A DNA stretch of 64,000 bases from Clytia hemisphaerica (Eukaryota; Cnidaria; Hydrozoa; Leptothecata; Clytiidae), in contig CACVBU010000616.1 of assembly GCA_902728285.1 (NCBI GenBank), forward strand, positions 1,425,209-1,489,208. The letters are read 5' to 3'. A program made the position numbers and the translations under genes. Positions 5,481 through 47,463 of the stretch are shown in pieces. The stretch's first letter is position 1. Every line of letters starts with the position of its first letter. A model generated the notes under the pieces. It searched no databases and was not told the origin of the DNA. It saw nothing but the letters and a program-made list of their open reading frames with translations.

Positions 5481-8400
5481 GTTGATTGTATTGATATCTG
5501 TGTTGACGGCGTCTTCAGGAATGATGGCTCGTTTGAATTTAAGTTGACCAATCTCTTTCATCATTTCGAAATTGGATTCCCAAAGAGGTCGAAGGCTGTC
5601 TGGAATTTGGTCATCCCAGTCCAGTTGATGATGTAGTAGGTGTTGAAGATCTATCTTCATTGATGCGATCAGTGGTGCAACCTTGCCAGTTAAATCAAAG
5701 AGTTCAGCTACCTTGGAAGCACAGTGACGACGAGTGAGACGAGAGGGTATGATGTTTTGTAGATTTAAAGGTTTCTTACCCCGGTTCTTCTTAGCAAAGT
5801 TGAGTTCACTGACGTGTAATGATAGCATGTCTTCCTTGACGAACCATTTCATGCCAGCGACAAAGATGGTGCTGTTGTCTTCGCTGAGTGAGCTTGGCGG
5901 TTCCTCCCCCGAGAAGGCAACACCTTTGAGTTGAAAACCACCACGATTGAGGACGATTTCCAATTGATCTGATCGAGTGTGGGCCAGTTGACGAGTAGCT
6001 TCTCCGGTGAGGCAGTCATCAACATAGACTTCCTTGTGGACGATGTCGTGCACTTCTGGATATTCTGATTGTGAAACTTTTGCAACCTGACGAAGAGCAT
6101 GCTCAGCTTGATTGCCAGATGATTTTATGCCATAAATTAACGTTTTGATGACTTTCTCCTCTGGTTCCTGTCCTGGTTCGAATGTTGGATGCCAGAGATA
6201 GCGTTGATACGTCCAGTGATCTTCATGGAGTCTGATTGTATTGTACATCTTCTTGATGTCAGTAGCAATGGCAACAGGTTGGACAGTCCATCTAAGAAGG
6301 ATCTCCTGAAGTTTGTTAAGATTATTGGTGCCTTTTGCTAAGATATCATTGAGACTTTCACCGGTGGACGTTGGTTGGGATGCATCAAATACTATCCTAC
6401 ATGGGGTACTGATCGAATTGCCTTTCCAGACTGCTCTCCATGGGATTGTATATTGGACTTGTTCATTTTGAAGATTCGCTTGAATTCTAGGGGATAAGTT
6501 TGTGACGTAATCGACATACCCTAATTGATGTAGCTTTCCTTCTGATTCAAGGATGTCTTGCTTGTCTTGGAAGTTCTTTGGATTGTTGAGCTTTTTGATC
6601 TGTTGTTGGTACACTTTCATTGCCTTCTCACGGTTGTTGGAGAGACGTTTGGTTGGGTCAGCAGTGAATGGTAGATGAGCTGTTGTGATGCTTTTGTCGA
6701 AGTCGATTGTTACCGACTTGTTGATGATTGTTTGTTCGACTTCTTCTCTGATGCTGATGGTTTCGTTTGAGTCGTGCTTGCAGTCTTTGCATTCTCTGCA
6801 CTTGGGGCATCTGTAGGATATTTCACTGCCAGCTGCTTCTACTTCTTCGAACACTCGCATTGCTGTTGACAGGTGAACTTCAGTGTTGATTGGTTGAGCT
6901 GGATGTGTTGGTTTGAATCCAAGAAGAGGTGAATCTGGTCGACTGCGGATTCTGATGAACTGATCTGTGAAGAAGGTTGTCATTGATGATGACAGGAAGT
7001 TTTGATGAATGGCTGTGAAGGTTGGGTGAGGTCCACCAACGAGTCCTCGTCCACCAGAAGAATTGAAAAATTTGGATTCGTAGATGGCAAGTCCAGATTC
7101 AAGTTGAAATTTCATAATGGGATGAAGTGAAAGATGTTTGACACCGATCATTAGATGAACATCTCCACCGATGGATGGTGCAAGCTTTGGAAGGTTGCCA
7201 GATTGATTTGATAAGCTGTACTGATGATTGATATCTCGTTCAACTTGGTCCAATGGATACATCGGAAATGTTTCAGTGATTTTCTCAAGGCAAGCCCCAA
7301 TGAGTGAGACTTCAGTACCATCGTGGAGTGGAATCTTGACGCGATAGGTGCCAAGTGTTGATTGTGCTTGTGTTTGACCGACACCACCAATGCTGATTGG
7401 TTCAGATGATAGTTGTTCTGCAAATGGTCCAAGTAGTTTGATGGCTTCGTGACTAACGACAAAATCACTACATCCATTGTCGAAGAATATGACGAGGTCT
7501 TTGCCATTGACGCGAATTTTCTGTAGAAGGTAGATGCCTCTCTCATTGCAATCATTGTTGGAAGCTTTGTAGAGGTGAATTTGACGAGCAAAAGCTGGTA
7601 GTTTTGGGCTTTTGATGAAACGATCTACATACCTCTTGAGCAGTTGTTGATTTGATGGTAAGGCTTTGTGATCTTCGCAGAGTAGGACGTGCTTCTTGAT
7701 TGGATCTTGATGATGTGTGGGATGTGGACAGATGAAATCATGTTGGCATCTTCCATCTTGATGTTTACCTGTCGTTGAGCTGGCTCCTGGGAAGAGACAT
7801 TGGATACAGAAGCCTTTGTTGTTCAGGATCTTCAGACGTTCGGCTGGAGACTGTGTAGCAAACTCTTTGCAGGTGTAGTATTGCATGATTCTGGTTGATT
7901 TCGGACCAGATGTTGATACGTGCTCGTTAAATCCTTCAGGTGCATTGCAGATGGTGCAGACAGGATCTGTTGGTGGAGTTGGAAGGTTCGAGTGATGAGA
8001 TGATGGGCCACGCTTCCCACCACCTTGACGGTTGTCTTCCTTCTTGGCTGGATCATTCTTGATTGATAGCAATTGTTTCTGTTCGAGGACTTTCCTTTCT
8101 TTTGTCAGAAAGTCGATGAATTGATGCCACGTCTGCTTTGGTGTGAGTGTGTCATTGCAGATGCTTGATATGAAACGAGTAGATCTCCCTTCACCAATTA
8201 ATTGATTGATCTTTCCAAAGGTGTCCCCATAGTATAGGTATTCCTCAATCTGGTGCTTCTCGGCTAATGCTGATACCTCCTTCATGATGTTGATGATTTT
8301 GCTCAAGGTGGAAGGTAATTTCTTGGCATCTCTCTTGTGTGTTTCGAGTGAATCGATCTCTTGGACTTTCTTTGATAACATGAGTCGTGGATTGCCAAAT

Positions 8401-9413
8401 GCATCTTTGAGGCGTTGCCAGATTTCAGTTATTGATTCGAGTGATTTGACCATGGTGAGTGCTTGACCTGCCAAATAATTGTTCTTAAGCAGATCTGGTA
8501 AGAGGTTAGATGGTGTTTTATCATTGTACATTTTGTCAAAGTTCAATTTGAAGGTGTAGTAATCAATTGGTCCGTCGTAACCAGAAAACTTTTCTAGTTT
8601 GATGTTGAGTGATGCTTTGTTGAATTCTGTAAGTTTGTCGAGTTCACGATCTTTGATTTCTTTGACCAAACTGTTGTTGTATTTTTTTTTCAGTTCGTCA
8701 AGTTTCGAATAGCTTGCTTTGGTTTTCGTCATGGATGCACGAAGTGTTGCACTTGAAATTGGAGTTTCGAGACATTTTCTGTAGTTGTCCCGAATCTTTT
8801 CGTAGGTAGAGTTGATTGATGGAGTTTCGGTTCGCCAGTTGAGAAGTATGTTGGAATCAGCAGTTTCAACATCACGATCGAAAATTGTTCCGATTTCTTT
8901 GATGGATTCATTGACACAATCAAGAAGGAAGTTAACAGTTTCCTCCTTTACGGTGGCTGCACTGGCTTGTTGGGTTTGGTTGATAGATTTGTGATGTTGA
9001 GTTTGGACCTCATAAACTTTGGTGTTGAAGTCCTTTATTGATTGTACTGCAGTGGTGACTATCTCGTTGAATTCGTCTGGTAAGACTTCTTTTCTGAGTT
9101 TGATGGTGAGTTGTAATCGATTCATGTCGAAACGAATTTTTTCGACTTTATCAAAGATAGCAGTGACCTGATCTGGTTCCATGGTTTGAATTGGAGTTTC
9201 ATTTGTTATATCCGTGACAGCTTGAGACATGAGGACCAGCTCGACGGCATCTTTGCTGGGGTCGGCCATCTCAATTGACTCTGTTGATGAGGTATCGTTG
9301 ATTGATAGGTTTTGAAGTCTGGATGAAAGGTTCTCTTCAGTGATGGGAACACGTTCACCCGTTGAGTTGAGTTTGCGATAATCGATTCGAGGGAATCTTT
9401 GTTGTCTTGACAT
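5475..9413 (-). CDS. BEL/Pao gag-protease-reverse transcriptase polyprotein
   Basis: An ATG at 9413 opens a frame that runs to 5325; the meaningful part ends near 5475, where reading must shift by one base to continue into RNase H. In order: a long helical gag region; DUF1759 at about residues 270-400 (LEKFSGYDG...); Cys/His clusters at about 485-600 (CTIC...); an aspartic protease of the DUF1758 kind near residue 640 with FFDNGCSDF, where Asn-Gly replaces the usual Ser/Thr-Gly; and the reverse transcriptase with IKKMYNTIRL near 1050 and the catalytic YVDD near 1130. The polyprotein would assemble virus-like particles and copy element RNA in the cytoplasm. Apart from the single frame change this part is intact. 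Confidence 0.92.
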
Positions 9414-13794: not shown

Positions 13795-14601
13795 CAAATT
13801 AAAACGCCCCAGGGCACACGTGACCCTGGCTTGTTTGTAACTGATCTGGATTTTGCTGATGACCTCGCACTTGTTGCAGAAAGTATTCAAAATCTCGAAA
13901 TTCTACTCCATTCTTTAGAAACTGCAGCAAGTCAGGTCAGTCTTTACTGTAACGAGAAAAAAACAGAATATCTTTGCTCCTCTGAAAACTTTCTCCCTTT
14001 ATTTTCTTTGAAAGGTGTTGACATTAAAAAAGTAATCGATTTCAACTACTTAGGCTCTCTTATCAACAGTTCTGATAGCGACTTTAAAACCAGGAAAGCA
14101 CTTGCGTGGAAAGCTTGTAATAAGCTCAACAAAATCTGGCAATGTGATCTTGACAATAACCTCAAGCTGAAAATTTTCAAGTGTCTTGTGGAGCCCATTC
14201 TTCTTTATGGTTCTGAAACCTGGACCATGACAAAATCTATGGAGAAAAGTCTTGATGGGTGTTATACCAATCTCCTAAAAAGGGTTCAAAATCTTGATTG
14301 GAGAGATCATCCCAACCTCGCCCAAATCTACCAAGGTCTCCCTAGAATCTCTTCTGTTCTTTTTTCCAGGAGGCTAACTTTCTCCGGCCATTGTTTCAGA
14401 GCAAAATCTGAAATCATTTCAGATATCTTATTGTGGTGCCCTACTGGTCCTAGACGCTCAAGGAAGCAAACTTTCCTCGACAATTTGAGGCGGGAAACAG
14501 GGCTCGAGTTAGAAGAACTGAAAACAGTTATGTCAGACCGTGAGCTGTGGAAAGAGAGATACTCGGTATTTCCGACCTAACGGTCGAAGGATGATGATGA
14601 T
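13795..14601 (+). pseudogene. 5'-truncated LINE, 3' end of reverse transcriptase
   Basis: The frame 13831-14580 encodes about 249 residues starting inside the reverse transcriptase. DLDFADDLALVA carries the catalytic F-A-D-D, followed by YLGS, then YGSETWTMTK and a conserved C-terminal tail ending at TAA 14578-14580. The DNA then runs into a (GATGAT) tail (about 14589-14604), as in RTE-like and related LINEs whose 3' ends finish in short microsatellites. The endonuclease and most of the fingers are absent, so this is a dead 5'-truncated insertion. It sits in the loop of the fold-back structure, so it inserted after or with that element. Confidence 0.85.
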
Positions 14602-18181: not shown

Positions 18182-18430
18182 TTAGTCATTTTTATCAAAC
18201 CATTTACATACCATTGTTACGCCGTTCAATGCAGTATCATCACCAGCACCACCACCCTGGTTTTTTTCTACTCGTGTTTTGATACCAGCTAAGCGATATC
18301 CTTTGGGACATTCTTTTACACCTGACCAGCCTCCCCAGCCACCTTCTTTACTTTTATGCCATTTTTCATCATCAGCACAACGTAGTTCTATTGCGTTCGC
18401 CGCTGTGTCGTCGTCAACATAAGCTTTTCC
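18182..18430 (-). CDS. Secreted MACPF-TSP1-VMO-I protein, exon 7 (VMO-I, second half, and stop)
   Basis: The exon starts after TTTTTAAG and opens GKAYVDDDTAANAIELRC, completing the domain begun in exon 6 in phase 0; TAA is at 18182-18184. It holds GGWGGWSGVKECPKGY and a last GDDTALNGVTMVC. With exon 6 the motif D-D-T-A-x-N-x-[IV]-x-[ML]-x-C appears three times, matching the three-fold internal repeat of the vitelline membrane outer layer protein I (VMO-I) beta-prism. A GTATGT within the last codons resembles a donor, but reading through is preferred because the final Cys of the third repeat lies beyond it. The exon encodes residues about 790-871. Confidence 0.85.
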   Translation of the reverse strand, partial: GKAYVDDDTAANAIELRCADDEKWHKSKEGGWGGWSGVKECPKGYRLAGIKTRVEKNQGGGAGDDTALNGVTMVCKWFDKND

Positions 18431-21012: not shown

Positions 21013-21302
21013 CTGCTCCTCCTCCACTTTTAGTTTGAATGCTGTAAAACCACCAGGGCATGGCTTTGATTCAGTGTCAAAGCTCCCATCATCTGCAAAT
21101 TTGCTGGTTATAATGGTTTTACCATCATCATTGCATCTCATTTCGATTTTATTGAGCGCCGTATCATCACCTCCGGTATGAAAAGGCCCAAAAGCATATC
21201 CCCGAGCATCTTGAACTTTAGAGTTGAACGAAATAATAAAGTGTCCTGTTGGACAGTACTCATAATCACCCCAGTCGCCCCAGTGGCCCGGCACAGTAAA
21301 TT
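21013..21302 (-). CDS. Secreted MACPF-TSP1-VMO-I protein, exon 6 (VMO-I, first half)
   Basis: Acceptor TTTTTAG before 21302, donor GTAAGA after 21013, 290 bases. It opens EFTVPGHWGDWGDYEYCP and contains GGDDTALNKIEMRC and KPCPGGFTAFKLKVEEEQ. The G-x-W-G-x-W ... C-P-x-G opening and the DDTALN block are the hallmarks of VMO-I, a beta-prism domain first known from the bird egg coat and thought to bind or modify carbohydrate. The phase (one base from exon 5, phase 0 to exon 7) fits both neighbours. The exon encodes residues about 693-789. Confidence 0.88.
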
Positions 21303-23941: not shown

Positions 23942-24088
23942 CTTTGTCTGGGAAACAAGACTTAGGTCTACAGACTTCTTCGTTCTTTCTGTTTTCTCTA
24001 TTTTTGTTATCAGAACAGCCATTACATGTTCTTGTTCTTGACTGATGTTTGGATGAACATTTTGAGTTACATGACCATTCAGACCATT
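23942..24088 (-). CDS. Secreted MACPF-TSP1-VMO-I protein, exon 5 (TSP1 module)
   Basis: 147 bases, phase 1 on both sides, so the whole module is a symmetric exon of the kind moved by exon shuffling. It reads EWSEWSCNSKC...HQSRTRTCNGC...EEVCRPKSC. This is a thrombospondin type 1 repeat with the W-x-x-W ladder, the R-x-R-T-C strand and all six cysteines. TSP1 modules act outside cells in adhesion and protein or glycan binding, and also occur next to MACPF in complement components. The acceptor is CCAACAG before 24088 and the donor AAAG/GTTTGT at 23942. The module is too short to show as an obvious long open frame. Confidence 0.87.
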
Positions 24089-24173: not shown

Positions 24174-25066
24174 CGGTTTGTGTAATTTACGATGCGCGAT
24201 CCAACGATTCACGATGCACGATGCACGATCCATGCATATATTATGTTAATTATTCTAATTATGCATTTACAGGTTTTAGTAATCACATATTTTAATTCCT
24301 TCTTTTGTATTCCTGGAAAATCAATGTAAAGCATGCGTGTATATATTTTAACCTCGACAATCAAATCAAATCAAAACATAAACTTTTTTGCCCATGCTTT
24401 GAATTGAATATCTTGTAACCTTTTTGCTTTCTTTCTTAAAAAAAAGGTTTCTCCAATTAAACCAACCAAATGCATTAAATTGAGACAGGGTTATAAACAA
24501 AAATTTACAATGTTGTGGTAAAGTAGGGAAGACGTTTTTTAATGAAGAGCGCGTGTATAAACTCACCTTTTTTGAGAAAGATCAAATGATTTAATTGACT
24601 TGATCATCAAACAAAGAAAAATATCAAACAAATAAAAGCACCAATTGAAATTCAGAATGTAGCCAATGATTCCTTATATACCTTATTCAATGTTCTTAAA
24701 AAATAATACACGTACAAAAATGAGTTTGTGTTATAATAAATTTTTCGCGCCAAAACTTTTCTATGACGTCAAGGCTTTTTCTTTCATTTTATAAACGAGT
24801 GAGGCATGCGGCGAACATTTTCTTTCTCTCGCTATCAATTTTGGGTTTTTCTACACTGAAGATATAAGTTATTTTAAACATTCTGATTATGATAAATTAT
24901 TTCCCCTTCTTTTTTTATTTTTTTTTCGTTATTGTTATATGATGTTTGTAGCTAGTATTATGAAAACTTATTCGTGCATAATTAGAATAATTAACATAAT
25001 ATATGCATGGATCGTGCATCGCGCATCGTGAATCGTTGGATCGCGCATCGTAAATTACACAAACCG
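24174..25066. mobile_element. hAT-like MITE in intron 4
   Basis: Terminal inverted repeats of about 95 bp, starting CGGTTTGTGTAATTTACG on both ends and containing repeated ACGATGCACGATGC words, flanked by a perfect 8-bp duplication TTCCTTTT (24166-24173 and 25067-25074). No transposase inside. Confidence 0.78.
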
Positions 25067-26160: not shown

Positions 26161-27591
26161 CTGTGCACTGGTGCTCTAAGACTTTGATTTCTTCACTTAT
26201 TATATTTGCTAAAAAGCGTATCTTCTCTCCTTCATCCAGATTGTTGAAAAATCCTAACTTCGCTTGTTCATTAAGATGTGTAAAATAGATCATTTTATTT
26301 CCATCAGGCAACGTGTTAAAATATGACATTTTTCTGCCATCATCAGAGTCCTCAAAATGAAGGAGCCGATTTTTTATTTCTTCCACCCCATAGAAATAGT
26401 CTCTCTGACGTCTCCTCATTCCATATAATATGTTTGTCATAAAATAAAATTTGTCTTTATATGAAAGGTTTGTAAAATACTGCAGCTTCTTTGCATAATC
26501 GGGCAATTGAGCAAATTCGTTCAGCTTTTTTCCATCATACAAATTTTTCAGAATTTGAATTTTCGTTTTGTGGTTTAGATCGTCCTGGAAAACTTTTAAT
26601 TTCCTTTCATCAGGGAGAAGCGGAAAAGAGTACACTTTTTTATAATCAGGCAACCCTAGAAAATATTCAACCTTTTTCTCTTTGGGGATTTGTGCGAAGT
26701 ACTGTATTTTGCGGTCCATATTGATACAAAATGTACCTAGTGGACATTTGTCATCTATACCACAACCTTTTTTCGGAGAACAATCTAACTCCATCGTTTT
26801 GCAGTAATCCCAATACAATGGTAAAAACCATTTGCGAATTTTATAACTGTCCGTAACCTTTTTGCCATTTTCACTCTCGATGTTGTTTGCTTTTAAAATT
26901 TCATCAGTGAATAAATTGACAATAGGTGAGAGTTTGAACCGTATAGGAAATGGGGAAAAGTTTTCTTTAGACCACGACCTTATGTCCTTGGGAGTTGCTC
27001 CTTTTGTTACTACTTGACCGATGTAGTCATTTCCTTCCATTGCACTGAGACTTGTTTGGTCGCTTGATGTACACGAAGATTTATCCTCCTCTACTTGAAT
27101 ACCAAAGACTTTTGAACCTTCTACACTATTACAACTAGCTAATTTGTCATCGTTGAAGCTTTTCCGAATTTTTCCTGAGTATTTGTTGATTTGAAAGAAC
27201 TCAACACCGAGGTAGGATTCTATTAGAAAGTGGGTTCCGTATTGACCAATAAACATTTTGAAGTTTTGTTTGAGTTGTTTAGCCTTTTTAGCCGATTCTT
27301 GACTGCTAATTTGATTAAATGGCAGTGCAAATTGATTGGTCTGCTGTGAATGATGTAAACGCCATGCTAAAGACAATGAGGAGCCTAACGATTCGTTTTC
27401 TTTTTCTGATTCAACAGAAGCAGCATATAGCTCGGCAATAGCCTTTTTCAACGGCTCTTTTAATGGCGGATATTCGTAGGCGTTCAACTTGATGGCATAG
27501 TTGAGGCAATGACCCGTTACAATCGCCACCATGCCCTTTTTCTCCGTAAATAGCTTTTCAAGGTTCTGTGTGCTCGTTGAATCACTCCAAC
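26161..27591 (-). CDS. Secreted MACPF-TSP1-VMO-I protein, exon 4 (MACPF core, Cys segment, 12-residue repeats)
   Basis: 1431 bases: acceptor TTAAATAG before 27591, donor ACAG/GTAATT at 26161. It encodes residues about 167-643. The MACPF signature Y-G-T-H-F lies at 284-288 (FIGQYGTHFLIESYLG), with the expected polar membrane-insertion segments on either side. A Cys-rich stretch follows at about 429-456 (YCKTMELDC ... CGIDDKCPLGTFC). Residues about 460-636 are a run of some 14 degenerate 12-residue repeats with consensus (hydrophobic)-x-[YF]-F-x-x-L-P-D-x-x-K, for example VEYFLGLPDYKK, MSYFNTLPDGNK and MIYFTHLNEQAK. MACPF proteins oligomerise into membrane pores; relatives serve as immune effectors, developmental factors and venom components, and which applies here cannot be told from sequence. 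I do not recognise the repeat array from other MACPF proteins. Confidence 0.9.
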
Positions 27592-29132: not shown

Positions 29133-29266
29133 CTCTAGTAAAAGGAGGTGGGATGGTTTCCTCGTCACTGATTCCAACACCCTCCATTTTAACACCAGCA
29201 GTAACTTTTTGTTGCACTCCAATTTGAAGATTCTCTCCCGTTTTCACATTATTCGTTACGAAGTCA
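29133..29266 (-). CDS. Secreted MACPF-TSP1-VMO-I protein, exon 3
   Basis: 134 bases. Acceptor GATATTTAG before 29266, donor TAGAG/GTAAAT at 29133. It encodes residues about 122-166 (DFVTNNVKTGENLQIGVQQK ... PPPFTR), the early part of the MACPF fold, with phase 2 in and phase 1 out matching exons 2 and 4. No long open frame marks it; it is supported by the phase match and by continuity of the MACPF chain. Confidence 0.8.
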
Positions 29267-30466
29267 CTAAATATCAAATACAACTCAAATTATTACGAAA
29301 ATAGCCTTTAAATTGGATCCAGCTGGATCAAAATATTGGTTCGAAGTTCATATAACTTAAAATCAACGTTAAATGGACGCTAATCTGACATTTTGTGTCA
29401 GCCTTACTTGAAATGTGCAGTGTAGCCACTATCAACTACCGTGAATAGCACAGGTCAAAATCATATATTGACACTGTGCCGACGAATCGAGATTCTATTC
29501 AGCGCGCAATCAACGAAGACAAAGGTAACCATGACGACCATCCAAGATCTTGGATGAGGTTCAAAGTTGAAATTTATTCCCGTCGTTGAAAACACAACTT
29601 ACAAAAAGTCATCAATGCTTTGTAAAAAGAGTCAGTGATAGAGAATCATAACATAAAGTCTGTCTCCCGGGGGGGTACTAGGGTTGCGAGCTGACGGGGG
29701 GGGTGCCGCCCGACTTTCGAACTTTGGACCCTTACCGGGACTAAAAAGGAGAAAACAAAGGAAAATTTTGGGAATTTAACGACCCTTAGCAGGACTTATT
29801 TGACTAATTTTGACCAAATTTCGATCTTTCAGGGGGTAAAAAGTTGAAATTTTCCTATTTTTCCGACCCTTACTGGGACTGAAATTTGATTTTCTAATTT
29901 TTCTGACCCTTAGCGGGACTTTGGAAGTCCAAAAAAGGTGCCCTTAAGGGCGGCACATACCGTACCCTCCATTTGCTTAAGTACCCCCCCCGGGTCTGTC
30001 TATAATTTCGATTCAATTAAAGTGACATTTCCATAATTAAAAGTTTAGTAATTACTGTTATACATTTGGGGATCATATAAAAGATTTCTTTCGAAATAAA
30101 CTCATTTCAATTACACTTGGTGGTGTCTGGGGAATTCGTAAATAGTAAACTGCATACTGATACAGTCTGCTAGACATTAATATGGTAATATTTGCTCTTC
30201 ATCTTTGATTTTTTGAACCTACCCCGGTGGGGTGGAGGTCCTATAAATTAACCTTTGTCCGTTCGTTCGTCCGTTCGTTCGTTCGTTCGTTATTAGCTTT
30301 CCTCGTGATTGGTTCATTAGTTTTTTCTGATTTTTTGCACAAAGATGTGTTACTATAAACCCTCGAATGTGACGGAGCCCAATTTTCGAATTTTTTATTT
30401 ATAAGAATCACTATTAATAAGCATACATCGATCGATCGGACAGGAAACCTTTGCTGTAAACAAATA

Positions 30467-30874
30467 ATGTCAACCTCAACCTTCACCAGTCAACAAACCA
30501 AAAGGACGTACCAGATCTTCCACAACGTTAACTGCAAAAGCACTCGCATCATCTACCTCCTGGAATGCAACAAATGTCACATCCAATATATTGGAAAAAG
30601 CGAGACCCAATTCAATCAAAGACTCAATAACCATAGAAGTAATGCATACAGACCACGACAAGAGACAATCCCAGCGTGTAAACATTTCCACCAAACCAAC
30701 CACGATTTCAACAGAGACGCAAAGTTCACCATCATCGAACAGATCAACGAGACAGATATAGAAAGAATGAAAAGGATAATACTACAGAGAGAAAACTTCT
30801 GGATCAAAGAACTGAGAACCCTCGCACCTCATGGGTTGAACCAAGAACTCAATCTTCTCCAACCGAGCGCCTAA
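30467..30874 (+). pseudogene. Penelope-like GIY-YIG endonuclease domain
   Basis: 135 residues. The core IIYLLECNKCHIQYIGKSE carries the paired Tyr / Y-I-G motif and is followed by FNQRLNNHRSN with the catalytic Arg. Later come FTIIEQI and ENFWIKELRTLAPHGLN, with the catalytic-type Glu. This is the C-terminal endonuclease of Penelope-like elements, which nicks target DNA for reverse transcription. The C-K-C insert between the two halves is typical of the group. The domain is intact, but the polymerase is absent, so it is a relic. Confidence 0.85.
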
Positions 30875-31070: not shown

Positions 31071-31790
31071 GGAAAAATCAAAATATAATAGCCGCATTCT
31101 TTTTCACCGTCCAACATAAGCATACATCGATGTTCTTAGTTAAATTACTCAATTTTTTGATGAGATTTTTTGCTCACGAAGTCTTGAATATGAAAGAATA
31201 TTTCAATAGCATGAAATTAAGGTTTGTAAACGTTTTTTTATAAGAAACAAACGACTAATTTTAATAGATCGTCACTATTTGTGTTCTGAATGATTGTTTA
31301 ATACTCACGCTCACGTAGATATCAATTATATATATGTTAAATGCATAACCAGGTAGGTCCATAGAAGTATCACTTGTTGTACAGTGACTAGATTGACACA
31401 TGCGCGATAAAATTTCTATTATTTGTCTTCAGTGGTTAATATATTTTTTGAAAACTTAACCTCTGATACTCAGGGTAACTATCAACAACATTAGGCGTAC
31501 CGACTTTCGCGAGCAGACTTGAGAAAAATTTTCAGAAATGTTGAAAAACTTTGAAACTTCAGAAAACTAATATCTATAGAATTTGGAAATTATTCTAGTC
31601 GTGAGTTGGGGAGTTTCGAGTCGGGGGTTGCTAGTTTAGAGCTGGGGAGTTAAAAAATTACTGGCTATACCGAAGAGGAATAACATACATCAAAAGTCGT
31701 TTCAAAGTAAATGTAAAATGAGAGTATTATTGCCCCCGCAACGAACGAAGTGAGTGAGGAGGCACTCATAGCTTCACGCGTAGATATTGG

Positions 31791-32477
31791 ACTAAAGTCT
31801 GTTTACGATAAGTGTGCACTCTTTTTTCATTTACCTATAGCTTTTGAAGGAATTCTTCAATCTTTATAAATTTGGTATCGTTTGAGAGATATTTGTGAGT
31901 GGAACCATTTGAAATAAAAAAGTCTTTAAAAAAATTCTAAAAACGAAGATGAAAATAAAGAAGAAAAAAATGAAGATCTTGTAGAAATGTGCTTTAAGTT
32001 TCATTTTCAGTAGAGAGATTCTTTGATCTTAGGAGGTCATCACTGTGAAGAAATTTCACTGAAATATTTATTCAATACAAACTTATGATACAAAGTTAAT
32101 AAGTGATTGACCCCAAAAAACAGCAGAAAACAGGGTTTTTAGACGTCAATCAGCTTATAACTTTGTTTGACATCTTTTGACTGAATGATTATTTTTTAGA
32201 ATTTTTTTCACAGTGATGACGTTCGATGATCAAGGATTCACTTCAGTGAAAATGATAGTTATAGCCCTTTCTATAAGATTTTCATTTTCATTTTTTTCTT
32301 CTTCATTTTCATCTTCATTTTTAAAAAAAATTTTGAAGATTTTTTTATTCCAAATTGTCCCACTCACAAATATCTTTCCAATGACACCAAATTTATAAAG
32401 ACTGAAGAATTCCTTCAAATTTTATAGGTAAAAGAAAAAAGAGTGCACACCTATCGTGAATAAATCGTGACTTTAAC
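31791..32477. mobile_element. Palindromic MITE, copy 1 (in intron 2)
   Basis: About 690 bp. The arms read ACTAAAGTCT...TCACGATAAGTGTGCACTC and the inverse, and much of the interior is also self-complementary. A second copy lies at 33136-33813. No coding capacity. Confidence 0.75.
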
Positions 32478-32798
32478 TGCTATCTTTTTGGTTTAGAAAA
32501 AGAGGCAACCAACAAAAGCCAAGCTCGAAAAGCAATAGGAAAACCATAACAAACACAAGATCTTCACAGGCTAAACATGATGCGAACACAGGCGAGCAGC
32601 GTTAGACACAAAAACAACCAAGGGAAATGAAAGGTCAGCTAAAGTGCTTCATGTAGAAAATCGCAAATGTTTAGCTCAACCCATGAATCAGGCCAACATT
32701 CTCGATGAATTCTAAAAAAGCTTCTTGAGGTAGCATGAATCTTTCAATATTTTCATAAAAGTGGATTTAGGAGGTTTTAAACATATGATGTGTCTTAC

Positions 32799-32967
32799 CG
32801 AAAAGATTTGATGTTGGTAAAAGAATGCGAAGACATTTCCTGCGTGCAATCATCCAAATCTTCCGCGGTAATACCATCGGCTAGGATATATCTACCGTCT
32901 GAATTCTTAACGGTCGCCTCAAATATCTGGTGCATGAATCCGGGGTCAACCTCAGCCAACGGGTCAC
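32799..32967 (-). CDS. Secreted MACPF-TSP1-VMO-I protein, exon 2
   Basis: 169 bases. Acceptor ATGAAG before 32967, donor TTTTCG/GTAAGA at 32799. It reads DPLAEVDPGFMHQIFEATV ... TNIKSF (residues about 66-121), the N-terminal strands of the MACPF domain. Phase 1 in and phase 2 out match exons 1 and 3. The GDPL...DPGF block just after a G-Y-N-L stretch is a pattern I associate with cnidarian MACPF proteins. Confidence 0.83.
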
Positions 32968-33135
32968 CTTCATGATAAAATAAGAAATAATTCAAGAATT
33001 CAGACACGTTTAGCTGGGATCGTTTTGTATACTGAGATTAAGTTCCTCCTCATCTCCTCATATTTAGGGATCTGACCCTGCTAGCTCATCAAAAACACGT
33101 TCGAATGATGAGCACCTTCCCCTAAAAAATTGAAA

Positions 33136-33813
33136 ACTAAAGTCTATTCACGATAAGTGTGCACTCTTTTTTCATTAACCTATAACTTTTGAAGGAATTC
33201 TTCAATCTTTATAAATTTGGTATCATTGGAAAGATATTAGCGAGTGGAACAATTTGAAATAAAAAAGTCTTTAAAAAAAATTCTGAAATTGAAGATGGAA
33301 ATGAAGAAGAAGAAAATGAAGATCTTGTAGAGAAGGGCTATAACTTTCATTTTCACTGGAGAGATTCTTTGATCTTAGGAGGTCATCACTGTGAAGAAAT
33401 TTCACTAAAATATTTATTCAATATAAAGTTATGATACAAAGTTGATTGACCCCAAAAAACAGAAGAAAACTGCAGAAATCAGCGTTTTTAGACTTCAATC
33501 AGCTTATAATTTTGTTTGATATCTTTTGACTGAATAATTATTTTAGAGAATTTTTTTCACAGTGATGACGTTCGATGATCAAGAATTCACTTCAGTGAAA
33601 ATAATAGTTATAGCACTTTTCTACAAGATCTTCATTTTTTTCTTCTTCATTTTCATCTTCATTCTTATAATTTTTTTAAAGATTTTTTATTTCAAATTGT
33701 TCCACTCGCTAATATCTTTCCAATGATACCAAATTTATAAAGATTGAAGAATTCATTAAAAAGTTATAGGTAAATGAAAAAAGAGTGCACACTTATCGTG
33801 AATAAAATTTAGT
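33136..33813. mobile_element. Palindromic MITE, copy 2 (in intron 1)
   Basis: Same family and length as 31791-32477, with arms ACTAAAGTCTATTCACGATA and inverse. The two copies sit in adjacent introns of one gene. Confidence 0.75.
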
Positions 33814-34104
33814 AAAATGTCAGATCGAAAGAAGTCGAGAAGTTGAAGGGAATTAACCCCTACCAGACATTTCAAGAGGTTGCAAAAGAGACCCTGCCCA
33901 GCGACACGTCCCCGTACCCATAGATGCCTAAGTGCCTCCCATGGGGCCTCTTTTCTCCTTTTTGAACAACAAAAAGGTATAAAAATTGTCCAAAAGTCTT
34001 TTTCTTGATTGCGTTTAAAAATCTTGATTTTGCAGTGAGTCTTTTTTTATGTATGGGCATAGAGAATTGTCGAGAAATTCCGCTGGTTTTTTTCTACTAA
34101 TTTG

Positions 34105-34597: not shown

Positions 34598-34793
34598 CTT
34601 TTCGAAGATTATAGCCTTGAAGGGCGTACTCCATATTCGGATAAGGGGTCCATTCCGGTTTACAGTCGTCCTCGTGACATGTCTTGCGAGAGTTTGCGAT
34701 GACATTGACAACGTCTTTATTTGTGACGGCTAATCCAATAATATCATGAACTGTTGCGGTGAAGGTTAAAATGACAAGCAATGTGGCTGCCAT
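34598..34793 (-). CDS. Secreted MACPF-TSP1-VMO-I protein, exon 1 (start codon and signal peptide)
   Basis: The ATG at 34793 opens MAATLLVILTFTATVHDIIG, a short hydrophobic stretch fitting a secretory signal. Next come two cysteines (TCHEDDC) and WTPYPNMEYALQGYNLRK, ending at donor AAAAG/GTGAGA (34598). Across all seven exons (34598-34793, 32799-32967, 29133-29266, 26161-27591, 23942-24088, 21013-21302, 18182-18430) the lengths sum to 2616, a multiple of three, and every junction keeps phase. The predicted product is an 871-residue secreted protein with domain order signal, MACPF, Cys segment, 12-residue repeats, TSP1, VMO-I. No exon carries a stop or frameshift, so the gene looks functional. 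Confidence 0.85.
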
Positions 34794-36774: not shown

Positions 36775-38448
36775 GATGATGATGGACTCTCTCGCCGATT
36801 TCGACGGATGAGCGTTCAGCATAAAGTAGAGATGTTAAGAAAGGAAAATAAAAAGTTAAGAGAAAACTGAAAAATTAAAATTCAAAATTGATAAAAATCA
36901 TGTACTTTAAAATAGGAAGGAAAGAAAAAAGAGAGTAAAAGAAATTCATTTATCTATGTTTAAACGTTTGTGTGTAAGGAGACCGGCATTAGATCTTGCC
37001 TTGAAATTGCAGAGTTCACAAGAGAATTGCTCACAGATTGGCCTAGCTTTTCTTCTTTGACGTATAAGATTTCTATGCTCACGCCACTGTTCTTCAAAAG
37101 CTTTCAATGAGTTGAAACAGGTTGCTCTCCAGCCTGATCTGTTTTGGCAGAGATTTTCCCAATCATTTACTAAGCCTAAATTTTAAATATTGGCCTTAGC
37201 TTTATCTTTAAAGCGAAGAAGAGGACTACCAATATTCCTGAAACCTTGAGAACATTCACCATATAAAAGAAATTTTGGAATGCGCTTATCATCTATTCGA
37301 ACAACATGCCCTAGCCAACGCAATTGTGATTTCATAAGCATGCTTTCAAGGTCCATGCAAGAACATTTCGAGAGAATTTCGTTATTTGTATGTTTGTCCT
37401 TTAAAGAAACACCTAGAATCGATCGAATACAACGCATATGAAAAGATTCTAAACGATTGATGTGTTTTCTGTACAAAGTCCATGTTTCAGAAGCGTAAAG
37501 AAGTATCGGTATAATAATTGCTAGATAGACACTTATTTTTGTTTGCAATCTGATACCACAATCGTTCCAAAGTCTGTGTCTAAGACGTCCGAAGGCAGAA
37601 CTCGCCTTTGCAATTCGAAGTGGTAGTTCATTGTATAGAGTTGCACTGGAGTTTGCACAAGAGCCTAAGTATGTCAAATATTTCTCAGATTTTAAACAAT
37701 AGTCACCAATGTATACCTGAGGATCGGTATGAGACATATTAGGTTTTGGTGGAAAAAGAACTTCAGTCTTTTTTTGACTAATTGTTAAACCAAAAGCTCT
37801 CGATGCTAGAGAAAACCTATCGACTAGATGTTGGATGTCAGCTAAGCTACTAGCTACCAAAGCACAATCATAAGCAAACAAAAGTTCACGAATTAAGTCA
37901 TAATTTAACTTAGTGCGAGCCTTAAACCGTTGCTGATTAAACAATCCACCAGAAGATCTGAATTGGATTTGAATGCCTTTATCACAATCCTCAAAAGCAT
38001 GAGACAGCATCACTGAGAAGAAAAGAGCAAATAAAACAGGAGCCATTACACAGCCCTGTTTGGTGCCATTAGAGACATTGAATGACGTTGAAGACTCTCC
38101 AGCGGCATGAACTGAGGCTTTCATGCCATTGTGAAACGATGAAATAACACTAAGCATATTTTCTGGTATACCAAGCTTCCTTAGAACTTTCCAGAGAGCA
38201 CGCCTATTCACAGTATCGAAAGCTTTAGTTAGATCGATAAATACCATGTAAAGGTCATTGTTTTTTTCACGCGACTTTTCTTGAATTTGACGCAAAGCAA
38301 ATATCATATCGACAGTACCTTTGCCAGCTCTAAAACCACATTGTGATTCGGGATACACATCAGGGACAATATGAGTTATTATCCTATTAAGGACCACCCT
38401 AGCAATAATCTTACCAGCCACAGACAGTAGAGAAATACCTCTGTGGTT
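36775..38448 (-). mobile_element. 5'-truncated LINE inserted in the satellite, 30-bp target duplication
   Basis: The identical 30-bp stretch beginning ATATTTATTTTTCTTATAAG occurs at 36745-36774 and 38449-38478, one on each side. On the minus strand the element begins inside the reverse transcriptase (NHRGISLLSVAGK), runs through the 3' UTR and ends in CATCATCATC. Because the target is itself a tandem repeat, the duplication could in part be pre-existing satellite, but the empty-site junction reads as a normal unit. Confidence 0.82.
36946..38446 (-). pseudogene. LINE reverse transcriptase with lost catalytic Asp and C-terminal zinc finger
   Basis: The sequence covers most of the polymerase: QCGFRAGKGTVD, then FIDLTKAFDTVNR (motif A with its Asp), NGTKQGCVMAPVLFALFF (motif B) and LLFAYDCALVA (motif C). 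In motif C the F-A-D-D is changed to F-A-Y-D, removing one of the two metal-binding aspartates. An in-frame TAA follows ...DKAKANI at about 37183. The same frame continues past it to a C-x2-C...H finger (CEQFSCELCNFKARSNAGLL) and a natural stop at 36946-36948. Endonuclease and N-terminus are missing. The copy is inactive by truncation, stop and active-site change. Confidence 0.88.
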
Positions 38449-40341: not shown

Positions 40342-42163
40342 TTTGGAGTTCTTCCATAAAAGACACTAAAATCTGATGAACTATAAGAAATTATAAAACT
40401 ACTTAAGACCACCTAAACATTTTTCAGCTTTTGGTATAAAATTCGTCCGTGTGATAACCAAACAATTTTTTATCAATGCATACAAAAAAACTTGAGATTC
40501 TTGAATGTTTGCCAATATTTTATTTCTCATAGCATAACAAGGGAAGTGAAATGTCTTGTATTAAACCAAATGACGAGTGATTTTTATAAAAGTTCTCTCC
40601 TAATTCTCGTTCTCAACGAGGTACGTCCTTGTTTGAATTTTCAACTCAACAATCATTACATCTTCCTTCTAAAATTAAAGCTTGACGATAATCAAGAAAG
40701 TATCCAAATTGTTTTGCTCTTGAAAAAATGTTGTTCTTTAACCATTATTACAAGCATACATTTCCATCATGGAACTCCTTTCCTCTGCTATTCTTTTCCA
40801 TGCATCAAAACAAAAACATAGAAAAAGACTGAATGTTATCAATCTGATTAATCCAATGATGAAGGGTTTCTTCTCTATCGAAAGTACACCATCTGCATTT
40901 TGAATTATCAATCTAGAAACTTTCAAATACATCTCTGAAAAATCTGCAACTCTTCAAAACAAAACTTCTGGATCGAAAATGATCGAAAATGCTTCTCTGT
41001 TTTGTTTTCGTGTCAATATTTTCGGCGGGAACATATCGAATGTTTTAATGTTCGAATCTAACGTTCGAATTAGATTTTCGAATAAAAACATTCGAAACTA
41101 CACAGAAGAGAGAAGCAGGGCGGAAGTAAGTTTTAAAACAAAAACAAAAAGAAATTCATATCAGGACAATTTTTTTGAGTCGACAATAAATTAGTTATCA
41201 AATGACTTCTCGTGCAATACTCGATATTTTACTCGTTCCGAGATTTTACCGATATTTTTCCTCGCCTAAAGGCTCGGAAAAATATTACGGAAAAATCTCG
41301 GAACTCGTAAAATATTTATCGTATTGCACTCGAAGTCATGCCATAACTAGTACATATTCAGGAAATACAATCTTAGATTAACAAGTTGATATTATTCTAA
41401 GACTTATCTGAGTAAGAAAATGCCAAAATATCTTGAGATTGTCTACTAAGGGACTAATATGGAAATATGGCAATGAATTTGGGAGATATCGAAATATGTT
41501 GTACACATTATTTTTTCATATGAAAAACTTCCTTGTCATCAATATTTTAAACCACCATAATATACCATTCACAAATAAAAAGTTACTCAAAGGGATCTCC
41601 TCCTTTGCAGATTTAGATTTCCAGTGCATAACATCTGTTCCTTATGGTTCAGTTGTTGCAAGAATTTTTATCTTTGTTCATATTCTCATTATGTGCAACA
41701 TTATCATTACACCATTGCCAGCAATTTACATTGCATTGTCAGCTTTAGAGGTCGTCACACTTTGTTGAATTTGTAATCCTGGCACCTGAATGTGAAAGGA
41801 AAGAAAAATTCAAAATTTCATAATGGGAAATAATCTCTTTACAGTAATCAATACCAAATGTGTGGTCATTCTGAAATCTCCCGAGAAAAAAAACTTTAAA
41901 AAGGCGAGACTCTGCTTGACGGTTAGGGCTATGTTTGCCCACTTAGGCACAGATATTCCAATATTTCCTGCAGAACCCTGCGGACTGACTTAAAATATGC
42001 TATAGCAACTTTTCGAATATTTATTTATCGGAACCTCGAATCCCGCCGCCGCCTGCGGGTTTCCAAATTTCACTGCGGGTTCCCTGCGGGTAATTTATAA
42101 ATCTTTAGTTATCGAAACCTCGAATCCCGCTGCCTGCGGGTTTCCAAATTTCACTGCGGGCTC
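40342..42163. other. Intergenic, mostly unassigned
   Basis: Short open frames at 40492-40821 and 41433-41768 match nothing I recognise. A near-perfect hairpin element lies at 41190-41351. Bases 42015-42180 are a 77-bp direct tandem duplication of a GCCTGCGGGTTTCC block. Confidence 0.45.
41190..41351. repeat. Hairpin element
   Basis: Arms of about 70 bases (starting near TTAGTTAT / ATAACTAG and containing GTGCAATAC / GTATTGCAC) around a short loop near 41268. Folds as one long hairpin; MITE-like. Confidence 0.7.
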
Positions 42164-42204
42164 GCTGCGGGTAATTTATAAATCTATAATAATAATAATA
42201 AAAT

Positions 42205-42955
42205 AATAAAAGGACCACAGGGAACGTACAAAAGGAGCCACAGGAGCCTACAAGAAGGACCATGGGGAGCCTAGAAAAGGTAAACGGGGAGCATACATAA
42301 AGATACGCGGGTGGGAGCATACATAAAGGTACACTGGGAACGTACAAAAAGGGCCACAGGAGCCTACAAGAAGGACCATGGGAAGCCTACAAAAGGTAAA
42401 CGGGGAGCATACATAAAGATACACGGGTGGGGAGCATACATAAAGGTACACTGGGAACGTACAATAAGGTACACGGGGAACGTACAATAAGGTACACGGG
42501 GAACTTACAATAAGGTATACGGGGAACGTACAATAAGGTACACGGTGAACATGCAATAAGGTACATGGGGTATGTACAATAAGATATACGGGGAACATGC
42601 AATAAGGTACATGGGGTACGTACAATAAGGTATACGGGGAACGCACAATAAGTTACACTGGGACGTACAATAAGGTACACGGTGAACATGCAATAAGGTA
42701 CATGGGGTATGTACAATAAGATATACGGGGAACATGCAATAAGGTACATGGGGTACGTACAATAAGGTATACGGGGAACGCACAATAAGTTACACTGGGA
42801 CGTACAATAAGGTACTCAGGGAGCGTACAAAAAGGTACCCGGGAACACATAAAAAGGACCAACGAAAAGCGTACAAAAGGTACCTTGAAAGCATTCAAAA
42901 AGGGCCACATAAAACGATACACGGGGAGCGTAAAAGGTACACAGGGAGTTAAAAC
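42205..42955. repeat. 23-bp minisatellite (copy 1)
   Basis: Unit like GTACAATAAGGTACACGGGG plus a few bases, repeated some 30 times. Since 23 is not a multiple of three, the minus strand stays open in all frames and shows a 23-residue super-period (VPYCTFP, YLIVRSP, CTLLYVP). These frames are artefacts of the repeat, not proteins. Confidence 0.88.
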
Positions 42956-43119
42956 ATCTATTATGCGTTGTTAGTAAAAGAGGTAACGATGTGGTAATGA
43001 TGTGGTAACGATGTGGTAACGAGTGGTAACGGGCTGGTAACGAGGTAACGAGTGATAACCAGTTGAAAACGGTAGCCCTAAGTCTCCAAATTTGAATTTC
43101 TTGATTCTGGTGTTTTTGC

Positions 43120-44240
43120 AACAGATGCTGATGGCCCTTGAGGTTCTGCAGCAGAACCTGAAAGATCTGGTGAATGTGCAGCAGGAATTGGAGATTCAGA
43201 ATGTTATAGTGAAGTTGATGGTTCTGGTGAATGGGATGGTAAATTTGGTTGTTTTGATGAATGAAATAATGGAAATGATGTTCTGGTGAATATGAATCAA
43301 AGATTTATAGTTCTGGAGGTTCTGCATTAGGAGTTTGTGATTCTGGTGAATGTACATCAGGAGTTGATGGTTCTGATGAATGTGATGGTTGAGTTGATGG
43401 TTATGGTGAATGTGATGGTGGATCCGATGGTTCTGGTGAATATGATGCTGGTGTTGATGGATCTTGCAGATGCAATGGTGGTGTTGGTGGTTCTGGCGAA
43501 TGTGATTGTGCAGTTGATGGTTTTAGTGAATGTGATGGTCGAATTGATGATTCTGGTAAATGTGATGGTGGCATTGATGGTTATTGTGAATTTGTTGATG
43601 GCATTGATGGTTCTGGTGAATTTGCAGCAGAAGTTAATATTCTGATAAATTGTTATTGAGATGTTATTCATGGATGTAATGACAACACAGTTATGGCGAA
43701 TCTGATTTGTTTTGCTAGTTAATGTTATCTCAATAACAATTTATCAGAATATTAACTCCTGCTGTACATTCACCAGAACCACCAACTCCACTATTGCATT
43801 CACCATTGCACCATTCCAGATCCATCCACACCAGCATTATATTCACCAGAACCACCAACTTCTGCTGCACATTCACCAGAACCACCAACTCCTGCTGCAC
43901 ATTCACCAGAACCACCAACTCCTGCTGCACATTCACCTGAATCATCAACTCCATTCCCCAGATCCACCAACTCCACCATTGCATTCACCAGAAACATCAC
44001 CTCCACTATCACATTCACCAGAAATAACAACTCCTGCTGCACATTCACCAGAACCACCAAATCCTGTTGCACATTCACCAGAACCATTAACTCCTGCTGT
44101 ACATTCACCAGAAGCACCAACTACTGATGCACATTCACCAGAAGTATCAACTCCTGCTGCACATTCACCAGAACCACCAACTCCTGATGCATATTCACCA
44201 GAAGCATAAACTCGTGATGAACATTCACCAGAACCATCAA
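43120..44240. repeat. 30-bp minisatellite arranged as a giant inverted repeat (copy 1)
   Basis: The left half repeats words like GATGGTTCTGGTGAATGTGA; the right half (43740 onward) repeats the complement, ATTCACCAGAACCACCAACT. The switch occurs in a perfect inverted repeat, 43627-43661 with 43727-43761 (TTAATATTCTGATAAATTG and complement), around a loop of about 65 bases. Open frames on both strands follow from the 30-bp period. Confidence 0.85.
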
Positions 44241-44468
44241 CTTCTGCAGTGTTGGCTAATAAAAGATGTGAATAGTAAAGTAAATAAAGATGGCATCTGA
44301 TTCTAGAACCGTTCTCTATGAAGTATATCTTTTAGCTAATCAAAGGCAAATACGATAAGTACAAAGCGGGCAGGACGCCCAAAACCTTAATATATGGGCG
44401 GAACCCAAAATAACAAATCTAACATTATAAGTATTATTTTTTCTTTTTCTAAATATTTTTATCTAAAG

Positions 44469-44598
44469 TTCAAAATAGTGTCGACGTTTGAATTCGTCGA
44501 CAAAAGTTACTTTAGGGGGTTCTATGGCGAAATCTTCTTTCCATTTTGTTTCTAAGGGTATCAATTTATTTACAGGTCTTTTCACTGTGTACAACTTC
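44469..44598 (-). pseudogene. BEL/Pao C-terminal fragment (duplicated piece)
   Basis: Same sequence as 47334-47463, the tail of the DUF5641 fragment, cut at the duplication border. Confidence 0.65.
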
Positions 44599-47463
44599 GC
44601 TGCGGGTAATTTATAAATCTATAATAATAATAATAAAATAATAAAAGGACCACAGGGAACGTACAAAAGGAGCCACCGGAGCCCACAAGAAGGACCATGG
44701 GGAGCCTAGAAAAGGTAAACGGGGAGCATACATAAAGATACGCGGGTGGGAGCATACATAAAGGTACACTGGGAACGTACAAAAAGGGCCACAGGAGCCT
44801 ACAAGAAGGACCATGGGAAGCCTACAAAAGGTAAACGGGGAGCATACATAAAGATACACGGGTGGGGAGCATACATAAAGGTACACTGGGAACGTACAAT
44901 AAGGTACACGGGGAACGTACAATAAGGTACACGTGGAACTTACAATAAGGTATACGGGGAACGTACAATAAGGTACACGGTGAACATGCAATAAGGTACA
45001 TGGGGTATGTACAATAAGATATACGGTGAACATGCAATAAGGTACATGGGGTATGTACAATAAGATATACGGGGAACATGCAATAAGGTACATGGGGTAC
45101 GTACAATAAGGTATACGGGGAACGCACAATAAGTTACACTGGGACGTACAATAAGGTACACGGTGAACATGCAATAAGGTACATGGGGTACGTACAATAA
45201 GGTATACGGGGAACGCACAATAAGTTACACTGGGACGTACAATAAGGTACTCAGGGAGCGTACAAAAAGGTACCCGGGAACACATAAAAAGGACCAACGA
45301 AAAGCGTACAAAAGGTACCTTGAAAGCATTCAAAAAGGGCCACATAAAACGATACACGGGGAGCGTAAAAGGTACACAGGGAGTTAAAACATCTATTATG
45401 CGTTGTTAGTAAAAGAGGTAACGAGTGGTAACGATGTGGTAATGATGTGGTAACGATGTGGTAACGAGTGGTAACGGGCTGGTAACGAGGTAACGAGTGA
45501 TAACCAGTTGAAAACGGTAGCCCTAAGTCTCCAAATTTGAATTTCTTGATTCTGGTGTTTTTGCAACAGATGCTGATGGCCCTTGAGGTTCTGCAGCAGA
45601 ACCTGAAAGATCTGGTGAATGTGCAGCAGGAATTGGAGATTCAGAATGTTATAGTGAAGTTGATGGTTCTGGTGAATGGGATGGTAAATTTGGTTGTTTT
45701 GATGAATGAAATAATGGAAATGATGTTCTGGTGAATATGAATCAAAGATTTATAGTTCTGGAGGTTCTGCATTAGGAGTTTGTGATTCTGGTGAATGTAC
45801 ATCAGGAGTTGATGGTTCTGATGAATGTGATGGTTGAGTTGATGGTTATGGTGAATGTGATGGTGGATCCGATGGTTCTGGTGAATATGATGCTGGTGTT
45901 GATGGATCTTGCAGATGCAATGGTGGTGTTGGTGGTTCTGGCGAATGTGATTGTGCAGTTGATGGTTTTAGTGAATGTGATGGTCGAATTGATGATTCTG
46001 GTAAATGTGATGGTGGCATTGATGGTTATTGTGAATTTGTTGATGGCATTGATGGTTCTGGTGAATTTGCAGCAGAAGTTAATATTCTGATAAATTGTTA
46101 TTGAGATGTTATTCATGGATGTAATGACAACACAGTTATGGCGAATCTGATTTGTTTTGCTAGTTAATGTTATCTCAATAACAATTTATCAGAATATTAA
46201 CTCCTGCTGTACATTCACCAGAACCACCAACTCCACTATTGCATTCACCATTGCACCATTCCAGATCCATCCACACCAGCATTATATTCACCAGAACCAC
46301 CAACTTCTGCTGCACATTCACCAGAACCACCAACTCCTGCTGCACATTCACCAGAACCATCAACTCCTGCTGCACATTCACCTGAATCATCAACTCCATT
46401 CCCCAGATCCACCAACTCCACCATTGCATTCACCAGAAACATCACCTCCACTATCACATTCACCAGAAATAACAACTCCTGCTGCACATTCACCAGAACC
46501 ACCAAATCCTGTTGCACATTCACCAGAACCATTAACTCCTGCTGTACATTCACCAGAAGCACCAACTACTGATGCACATTCACCAGAAGTATCAACTCCT
46601 GCTGCACATTCACCAGAACCACCAACTCCTGATGCATATTCACCAGAAGCATAAACTCGTGATGAACATTCACCAGAACCATCAACTTCTGCAGCACATT
46701 TACATGAATCACCAACGCCTACTGCACACTCCCTAGAATTACCAACTCCTGCTGCCTATTCATCAAAATCATCAACTCCTGTTGCACATTCACCAGAACA
46801 ATTAACTCCTGATGCACATTCACTAGAACAATCAACTCCTGCTGGACATTCACCAGAACAATCAACTCTTGCTGCACATTCACCAGAACCATCAACTCTT
46901 GCTGCAAATTTACCAGAATCACCAACTCCTGCTGTACATTCACCAGAACCACCAACTCCGCCATTGCATTCACCAGATCCATCAACAGCAGCATTATGTT
47001 CAACAGAACCATCAACTCCTGATGCACATTCTCCAGAACCATCAACTCCTGATGCATATTCACCAGAAGCATCAACCAATGATGAACATTCACGAGAACC
47101 ATCAACTTCTGCAGTGTTGGCTAATGAAAGATGTGAATAGTAAAGTAAATAAAGATGGCATCTGATTCTAGAACCGTTCTCTATGAAGTATATCTTTTAG
47201 CTAATCAAAGGCAAATACGATAAGTACAAAGCGGGCAGGACGCCCAAAACCTTAATATATGGGCGGAACCCAAAATAACAAATCTAACATTATAAGTATT
47301 ATTTTTTCTTTTTCTAAATATTTTTATCTAAAGTTCAAAATAGTGTCGACGTTTGAATTCGTCGACAAAAGTTACTTTAGGGGGTTCTATGGCGAAATCT
47401 TCTTTCCATTTTGTTTCTAAGGGTATCAATTTATTTACAGGTCTTTTCACTGTGTACAACTTC
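44599..47463. repeat. Segmental tandem duplication, copy 2
   Basis: 2865 bp, near-identical to copy 1 but longer. It carries about 420 extra bases of the 30-bp minisatellite (about 46690-47110), a 10-base TAACGAGTGG insertion near 45425, and small differences in the 23-bp array (44640-45395). The very low divergence means a recent event, or an assembly artefact. Confidence 0.9.
45570..47110. repeat. 30-bp minisatellite inverted repeat (copy 2, expanded)
   Basis: As in copy 1, with the palindromic centre at about 46072-46206 and a longer right arm. Confidence 0.85.

Follow-up and report, generated by a model that had tools for sequence, protein, structure and literature searches.

A 12-residue repeat array, predicted to be helical, in a loop of the cysteine-rich linker of one MACPF gene of Clytia hemisphaerica

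How does a long array of short repeats come to lie within a gene for a perforin-like protein, and what might it do there? The question is raised by a 64,000-nucleotide stretch of Clytia hemisphaerica DNA (the window), in which an earlier note had reported some 14 degenerate 12-residue copies at residues about 460-636 of a predicted protein. The interval given there is exactly exon 4 (1431 nt, acceptor AAATAG, donor GTAATT) of a seven-exon model on the minus strand, the GT-AG introns of which have matching phases and which splices to an intact-looking gene for 871 aa (Table 1). Exon for exon the order matches that of P0002, a database protein of 636 residues, and the product runs from a signal-like start through MACPF, a Cys-rich linker and a TSP1-like module to VOMI.

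Table 1. Features of the MACPF gene, in positions of the window
Feature	Position	Strand	Content	Basis
Exon 1	34598..34793	-	start codon, hydrophobic signal-like stretch, CxxDDCxPxWTPYxNM motif	tblastn of P0002; GT donor and frame
Exon 2	32799..32967	-	N-terminal module (DPGFMHQIF..GITAEDLDDC)	tblastn of P0002, P0009, P0010; splice sites
Exon 3	29133..29266	-	(ENLQIGVQQKVTAGV..TIPPPFTRG), initial MACPF part by alignment to relatives	tblastn; splice sites
Exon 4	26161..27591	-	remaining MACPF, Cys-rich module and repeat array	Pfam MACPF; AF2 model
Extra 41-residue stretch inside MACPF	27284..27406	-	exon-4 protein 62-102 as aligned	alignment A1, AF2
Cys-rich linker module up to loop	26726..26803	-	C263, C270, C276, C282, C288 (exon-4 protein numbering)	
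12-residue repeat array	26174..26707	-	534 nt, 178 aa, ~14 units, no cysteine	
HQC-T: closing cysteine C475 of module, then splice donor	26161..26173	-	aligns with HxC near exon end in relatives	
Exon 5	23942..24088	-	TSP1-like module, six cysteines	44% identity to P0002; Pfam TSP_1 below cut-off
Exon 6	21013..21302	-	first VOMI part	Pfam PF03762, 54.9 bits (cut-off 25)
Exon 7	18182..18430	-	remaining VOMI and stop codon	Pfam PF03762, 59.2 bits (cut-off 25)

The domain assignments differ in strength. Exon 4 scores 44.6 bits against the Pfam MACPF profile (PF01823; curated cut-off 21.5), exons 6 and 7 both lie above the curated cut-off for VOMI, and exon 3 on its own has no Pfam match. The TSP_1 profile (PF00090) reaches 12 bits in exon 5, below its cut-off of 21.6, and we take this exon to be TSP1-like from its WxxWxxC-type motif (EWSEWSCNSKC) and six cysteines. 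In an alignment of the window gene with 10 database relatives (A1) G118, T119, H120 and G128 are invariant, in a YGTHF...G region that we take to be the MACPF signature; profile matches include perforin-1 (6.8e-8) and C9 (6.8e-6), and the best Foldseek match of the exon-4 AF2 model in the PDB is MPEG1 at E 1.7e-4, but with TM-scores of only 0.20-0.22. The extra 41-residue stretch, which precedes the YGTHF motif, is gapped in all 10 relatives and is largely helical in the AF2 model, with long helices at low confidence. The gene is best explained as encoding a perforin-like MACPF protein that is secreted, has a VOMI head at its C terminus and is predicted to form pores.

The window also holds mobile and repetitive sequence in and around this gene. 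Pao/BEL-type retroelement frames occupy 3629-9413 on the minus strand, with Peptidase_A17 above cut-off in one frame and an integrase zinc-binding match below it; reverse-transcriptase frames lie at 13831-14577 on the plus strand (RVT_1 21.6 bits, below the 29.6 cut-off) and at 37186-38421 on the minus strand (RVT_1 90.8 bits). The intron between exons 2 and 3 holds a frame with a GIY-YIG domain (30359-30871, plus strand, 30.1 bits), presumably Penelope-like, and fold-back and direct repeats are found in introns of the gene at 31783-33821 and 24174-25066, exon 2 (32967-32799) lying between two repeat copies spaced about 1.35 kb apart. At 42162-47200 a block of ~2.4 kb is present in tandem duplicate, 99-100% identical over parts, together with 30-base and 23-base satellite arrays that give rise to long mock reading frames. 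Two neighbouring minus-strand frames at 60227-62783 encode a SAP-domain protein (34.3 bits) and 479 aa with no Pfam match at E <= 0.01.

The 12-residue repeat itself is real. In the spliced model the array occupies residues 462-639, close to the span first given for it. Counting by eye gives ~14 units, 12 of them in a 12-13-residue frame; an irregular middle stretch of 28 residues (FYFMTNILYGMRRRQRD/YFYGVEEIKNR) was left out of the set of regular units (n=12) together with the last residues of the array. The consensus of the regular units is [LIVM]-x-[YF]-F-x-x-L-P-D-x-x-K, with [LIVM] at column 1 in all 12, [YF] at column 3 in seven, F at column 4 in 10, [LI] at column 7 in 10, P at column 8 in five, [DE] at column 9 in eight and K at column 12 in 10. 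BLOSUM62 autocorrelation of the array gives z = 8.7 at lag 12, with echoes at 24/25 and 37, a score that none of 5000 composition shuffles reached over lags 5-40 (largest shuffle 4.8), and the degenerate copies picked out by eye are thereby borne out as a regular period. No such period is present in the MACPF part of exon 4 (maximum z 1.8) or in the TSP1 and VOMI tail (z 3.0, a value that 353 of 5000 shuffles also attained). The same conclusion comes, less strongly, from a fitted-profile test (149.3 against a shuffle mean of 121.5, sd 8.6 and maximum 144.2, in 200 shuffles), and the two halves of the array are still alike, with 18 of 57 positions identical.

Tandem Repeats Finder reports no DNA repeat inside the array, which is therefore not a recent satellite. 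Identity between the 12 units at codon positions 1, 2 and 3 is 0.427, 0.598 and 0.356, against 0.255, 0.354 and 0.268 for units with codons permuted inside each unit, giving excesses of 0.17, 0.24 and 0.09. The test is biased towards constraint, the units having been chosen by their protein pattern; position 3 also exceeds its permuted value. That the smallest excess falls at position 3 fits old units kept similar as protein, and constraint on the array at the protein level has in this way support short of proof. The composition of the array (29 of 178 residues aromatic, no cysteine, 30 basic and 26 acidic residues) also suits a folded domain.

The array had been placed between the MACPF and TSP1 domains; that order is right, and more exactly the array is contained in the Cys-rich module joining the two. 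After MACPF come C263, C270, C276, C282 and C288, followed by a loop and, at the end of the exon, by HQC; C276, C282 and C288 are invariant in alignment A1, and C263 and C270 are present in 10 of its 11 rows. The array is internal to exon 4 rather than a separate added exon, and begins 6 residues past one cysteine and stops 2 residues short of the next. The loop of the window gene is thus 186 residues long, and removal of the array leaves INMDRK-HQ, a C-x8-C loop of the 8 residues found exactly in 8 of the 10 database relatives (9 in P0010), so the array can be placed within one loop of one module. In P0011 a Gly/Ser-rich stretch of 59 residues precedes the next cysteine, seemingly in the same loop, and either the loop may tolerate inserts in the family or this stretch is read-through into an intron. 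The canonical EGF domain has a C4-x-C5 spacing; five residues separate C282 from C288 here, and Pfam gives no EGF match in the module at E <= 1.

The cysteines also bear on how the array is held. P0011 is without both C263 and C270, a joint loss that suggests that these two pair with each other, and since six other cysteines are present within the TSP1-like exon itself, C276, C282, C288 and C475 would then be left to pair among themselves. Should the closing cysteine pair back into the linker module in this manner, the ends of the array would be held together and the array would loop out sideways; we infer this disulfide closure from one co-loss and from cysteine counting.

The protein searches covered about 5.8 billion sequences by a method that needs shared 5-residue words and similar length, so that absence from them is not proof; they yielded the 10 MACPF relatives, none of which has the array, among 5753 candidates, nothing at E <= 1 for the array region among 441 candidates, and only P0002 among 1153 candidates for residues 380-660 of the full-length model. 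Two of the relatives, P0009 and P0010, belong to the same MACPF family and carry another tail, of repeated YLDRHxxxC...RYxYxCC modules with no Pfam match at E <= 1. In the assembly that contains the window (417 Mb, 951 contigs) a search with exon 4 gives 27 matches, several of them exons of one gene, distributed over 18 places that include the window, and 14 of the 17 other MACPF places were read (L002-L015; the second place on C18, and those on C653 and C884, were left out). A readable module is present in 10 of the 14 (L002, L004-L012), each with a loop of 7-9 residues, which amount to fewer than ten independent genes if the near-identical pairs L004/L005 and L008/L010 are alleles. The remaining four are rearranged or broken (L003), carry a different Cys-rich tail (L013) or are too divergent (L014, L015), and the array was not seen in their printed frames. 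The array alone drew 4 candidates from the same assembly and one match, to itself, and neither an orthologue nor a transcript with the array was found in the searches made. VOMI exons lie near the MACPF matches on C827, C419, C569 and C727, and at L003, on C419, MACPF pieces stand on opposite strands within 1 kb, by local inversion or misassembly.

Judging by the 92% identity of P0002 to locus L002 over 226 compared MACPF positions, this database protein is from the same species as the window or a close one, and is a paralogue of the window gene, to which it is 49% identical over 245 positions. A FastTree tree puts the window gene in the neighbourhood of L002, L003 and P0002; its first grouping, weakly supported (0.60-0.61), is however with two long branches, L014 and P0011.

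More distant searches were equally negative for the array. Pattern scans found no relative in bacterial and archaeal contigs, using the array and a two-row half-array profile (A2), or in viral contigs, using the array, the MACPF alignment and A2. PDB sequence searches gave matches at chance level only (best E 0.075 for the array, 0.1 for A2), NCBIfam gave nothing for the array, and in PHROGs the array reached E 0.021 at best, exon 4 nothing and P0002 one weak match. A MACPF protein with such an array was not found in the literature, a weak negative with subscription journals mostly uncovered, and the accessible parts of PMC8104411 and PMC11514114 have nothing on 12-residue units. The claim that no array of this kind was known in MACPF proteins has held up in the 10 database relatives and the 10 readable loci, and no named Pfam domain lies above cut-off on the array.

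A solenoid had been proposed for these units, and structure prediction on the region goes part of the way. AF2 on the array and its flanks as a single sequence gives a mean pLDDT of 38 (block means 24-56); on exon 4 with the 10 relatives it gives 28-52 in the array and mostly 56-82 in MACPF, with 42-43 in the 41-residue stretch. In both runs helix calls fall on unit positions 9-12 and 1-4, in at best 6-7 of 12 units in one model and 4-6 in the other; at unit positions 6-8, the 'LP' step, just 2-3 of the 12 units are called helical. Several units, the first two included, have no helix in either low-confidence model, and one model shows two short strands. The mean hydrophobic moment of the array is highest at 120 degrees (z 3.7), whereas an ideal helix would have its maximum at 100, where z is -0.7; the 120-degree peak reflects an i/i+3/i+6 spacing and is not diagnostic. 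One short helix per 12-residue unit is the most likely fold on these low-confidence models; partial helix-per-unit predictions fit a solenoid of putative geometry.

The reading that we favour, and to which we give about an even chance, is that the array is a paralogue-specific alpha-solenoid side arm with both ends held by the disulfide module, providing an extra binding surface; its fold, its closure and its binding role are all inferred. A 12-residue unit would have been amplified, in this one paralogue, within the final loop of the Cys-rich linker module, and the resulting copies would make up a domain of helical repeats, most likely an alpha-solenoid with one helix per unit, in which each helix spans D9-x-x-K12-h1-x-Y3-F4 and breaks at L7-P8. 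Because the same disulfide-rich module would hold both of its ends, the array would project as a side arm at the joint between the pore domain and the target-binding head; speculatively, the two half-arrays could fold back on each other at the irregular middle, bringing the ends together. VOMI shares the beta-prism fold (accessible parts of PMC8878817), and in a bacterial MACPF protein the membrane-binding site is carried in a beta-prism (accessible parts of PMC10344926). An arm at the joint of pore domain and VOMI would be in a good position to bind a partner or an adjacent subunit and thereby to steer assembly. Its most likely job would be to offer a further surface on which a partner, a receptor or a neighbouring subunit could bind, and so to set the place and time at which this paralogue assembles.

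It would seem decidedly unlikely that the array is instead an in-line stalk, a rigid spacer keeping the VOMI head away from the pore domain, as the earlier note had supposed. The order along the chain (MACPF, array, TSP1-like, VOMI) and the helical repeats predicted in part would both suit a spacer, but the array sits within a loop of the Cys-rich module, a loop of 8 residues in most relatives, with the closing cysteine just beyond it, and should that cysteine have its partner in the module, the array would not lengthen the connection between domains; the stalk was set aside as a leading idea on account of this cysteine-bracketed loop. Less improbable, though still unlikely, is an expansion that is flexible or in part disordered and lacks a fixed fold, the period being no more than a record of its growth. 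The low pLDDT of both AF2 models is in keeping with it, as is the apparent insert in P0011, which may mean that inserts are tolerated in the loop. Structural constraint is favoured instead by the fixed placing of aromatic and hydrophobic residues (F4 and [LI]7 in 10 of 12 units each) and by an excess identity that is larger at codon positions 1 and 2 than at position 3. The array might also be missing from the mature protein, through an unannotated intron or a silent gene, since the database searches found no protein of the window gene whereas a near-identical relative of L002 is present, and among 56 in-frame GT-AG removals that were tried several retain both cysteines, leaving loops of 17, 18, 20 or more residues. 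Against it, none of the 56 restores the C-x8-C loop of the family, the donors look weak by eye, and the array has 178 stop-free in-frame codons with a protein period, so that we rate this as very improbable.

Just as doubtful is the reading in which the array was not grown locally but captured, by exon capture or microbial transfer, as an MgtE_N/FliG-like domain. In its favour, MgtE_N (PF03448) is the sole Pfam match to the array, in two stretches. None of ten controls (nine shuffled arrays and one reversed) matched it. The match scores only 18.1 bits (E 0.0039) against a cut-off of 25.9, however, and as three of the same ten controls matched other families at E 0.018-0.19 this E value is not far above chance. 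Neither half of the array alone matches MgtE_N at E <= 1, and the three MgtE_N matches elsewhere in the genome (E 0.0089-0.12, none above cut-off) are short-unit tandem frames, only L019 being of PPEL type. The negative scans of bacterial, archaeal and viral contigs speak against capture, as does base composition, GC3 of the array (0.36) matching the rest of the exon (0.38) with GC slightly lower (0.33 against 0.38). Membership of MgtE_N was dropped on the sub-threshold profile score, and we treat the resemblance as one of pattern, not kinship. It is informative all the same, domains of the MgtE_N type being superhelices built from short helices, and counts towards the solenoid reading of the array.

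The array may further represent a new family of single-helix 12-residue alpha-solenoids, born by local unit duplication in the loop of one paralogue as its own recognition arm, the other paralogues keeping a loop of 7-9 residues; we hold this more tentatively than the side arm itself. What is new is a MACPF protein with an unusual insert, a predicted helical repeat, seen in one gene. Should the predicted fold be right, the array would be a repeat domain observed as the innovation of one gene, a structured arm set into a defined loop; it would reveal a site beside the targeting head at which MACPF proteins can accommodate a large insert, and would extend helical solenoids of very short period beyond the bacterial MgtE/FliG group.

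Amongst known systems, MPEG1/perforin-2, perforin-1 and C9 have the MACPF fold in common with the window gene and differ in their C-terminal modules, and we know of no 12-residue array in any of them. The insecticidal Mpf2Ba1 and Photorhabdus Mpf1Aa1 place a pore domain before a beta-prism with a membrane-binding site, which is also the fold of VOMI, but these bacterial proteins have two domains, and hence neither a Cys-rich/TSP1-like linker nor an array, according to the accessible parts of PMC10344926. The ARM-like superhelices of MgtE_N and FliG resemble the array as predicted in having one short helix per repeat; the accessible parts of PMC11870540 describe MgtE_N as short helices in a right-handed superhelix and FlgY as a four-membered right-handed superhelix in 56 residues. 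These domains are, however, bacterial, belonging to a Mg2+ channel and to the flagellar motor, and the sequence match of the array to them lies below cut-off. P0002 and locus L002 share with the window gene the order of modules, the cysteine framework and the end of exon 4, and differ in having an 8-residue loop without the array and a MACPF domain without the 41-residue stretch; array-free paralogues such as these, in the same genome, are natural controls that make the comparison testable.
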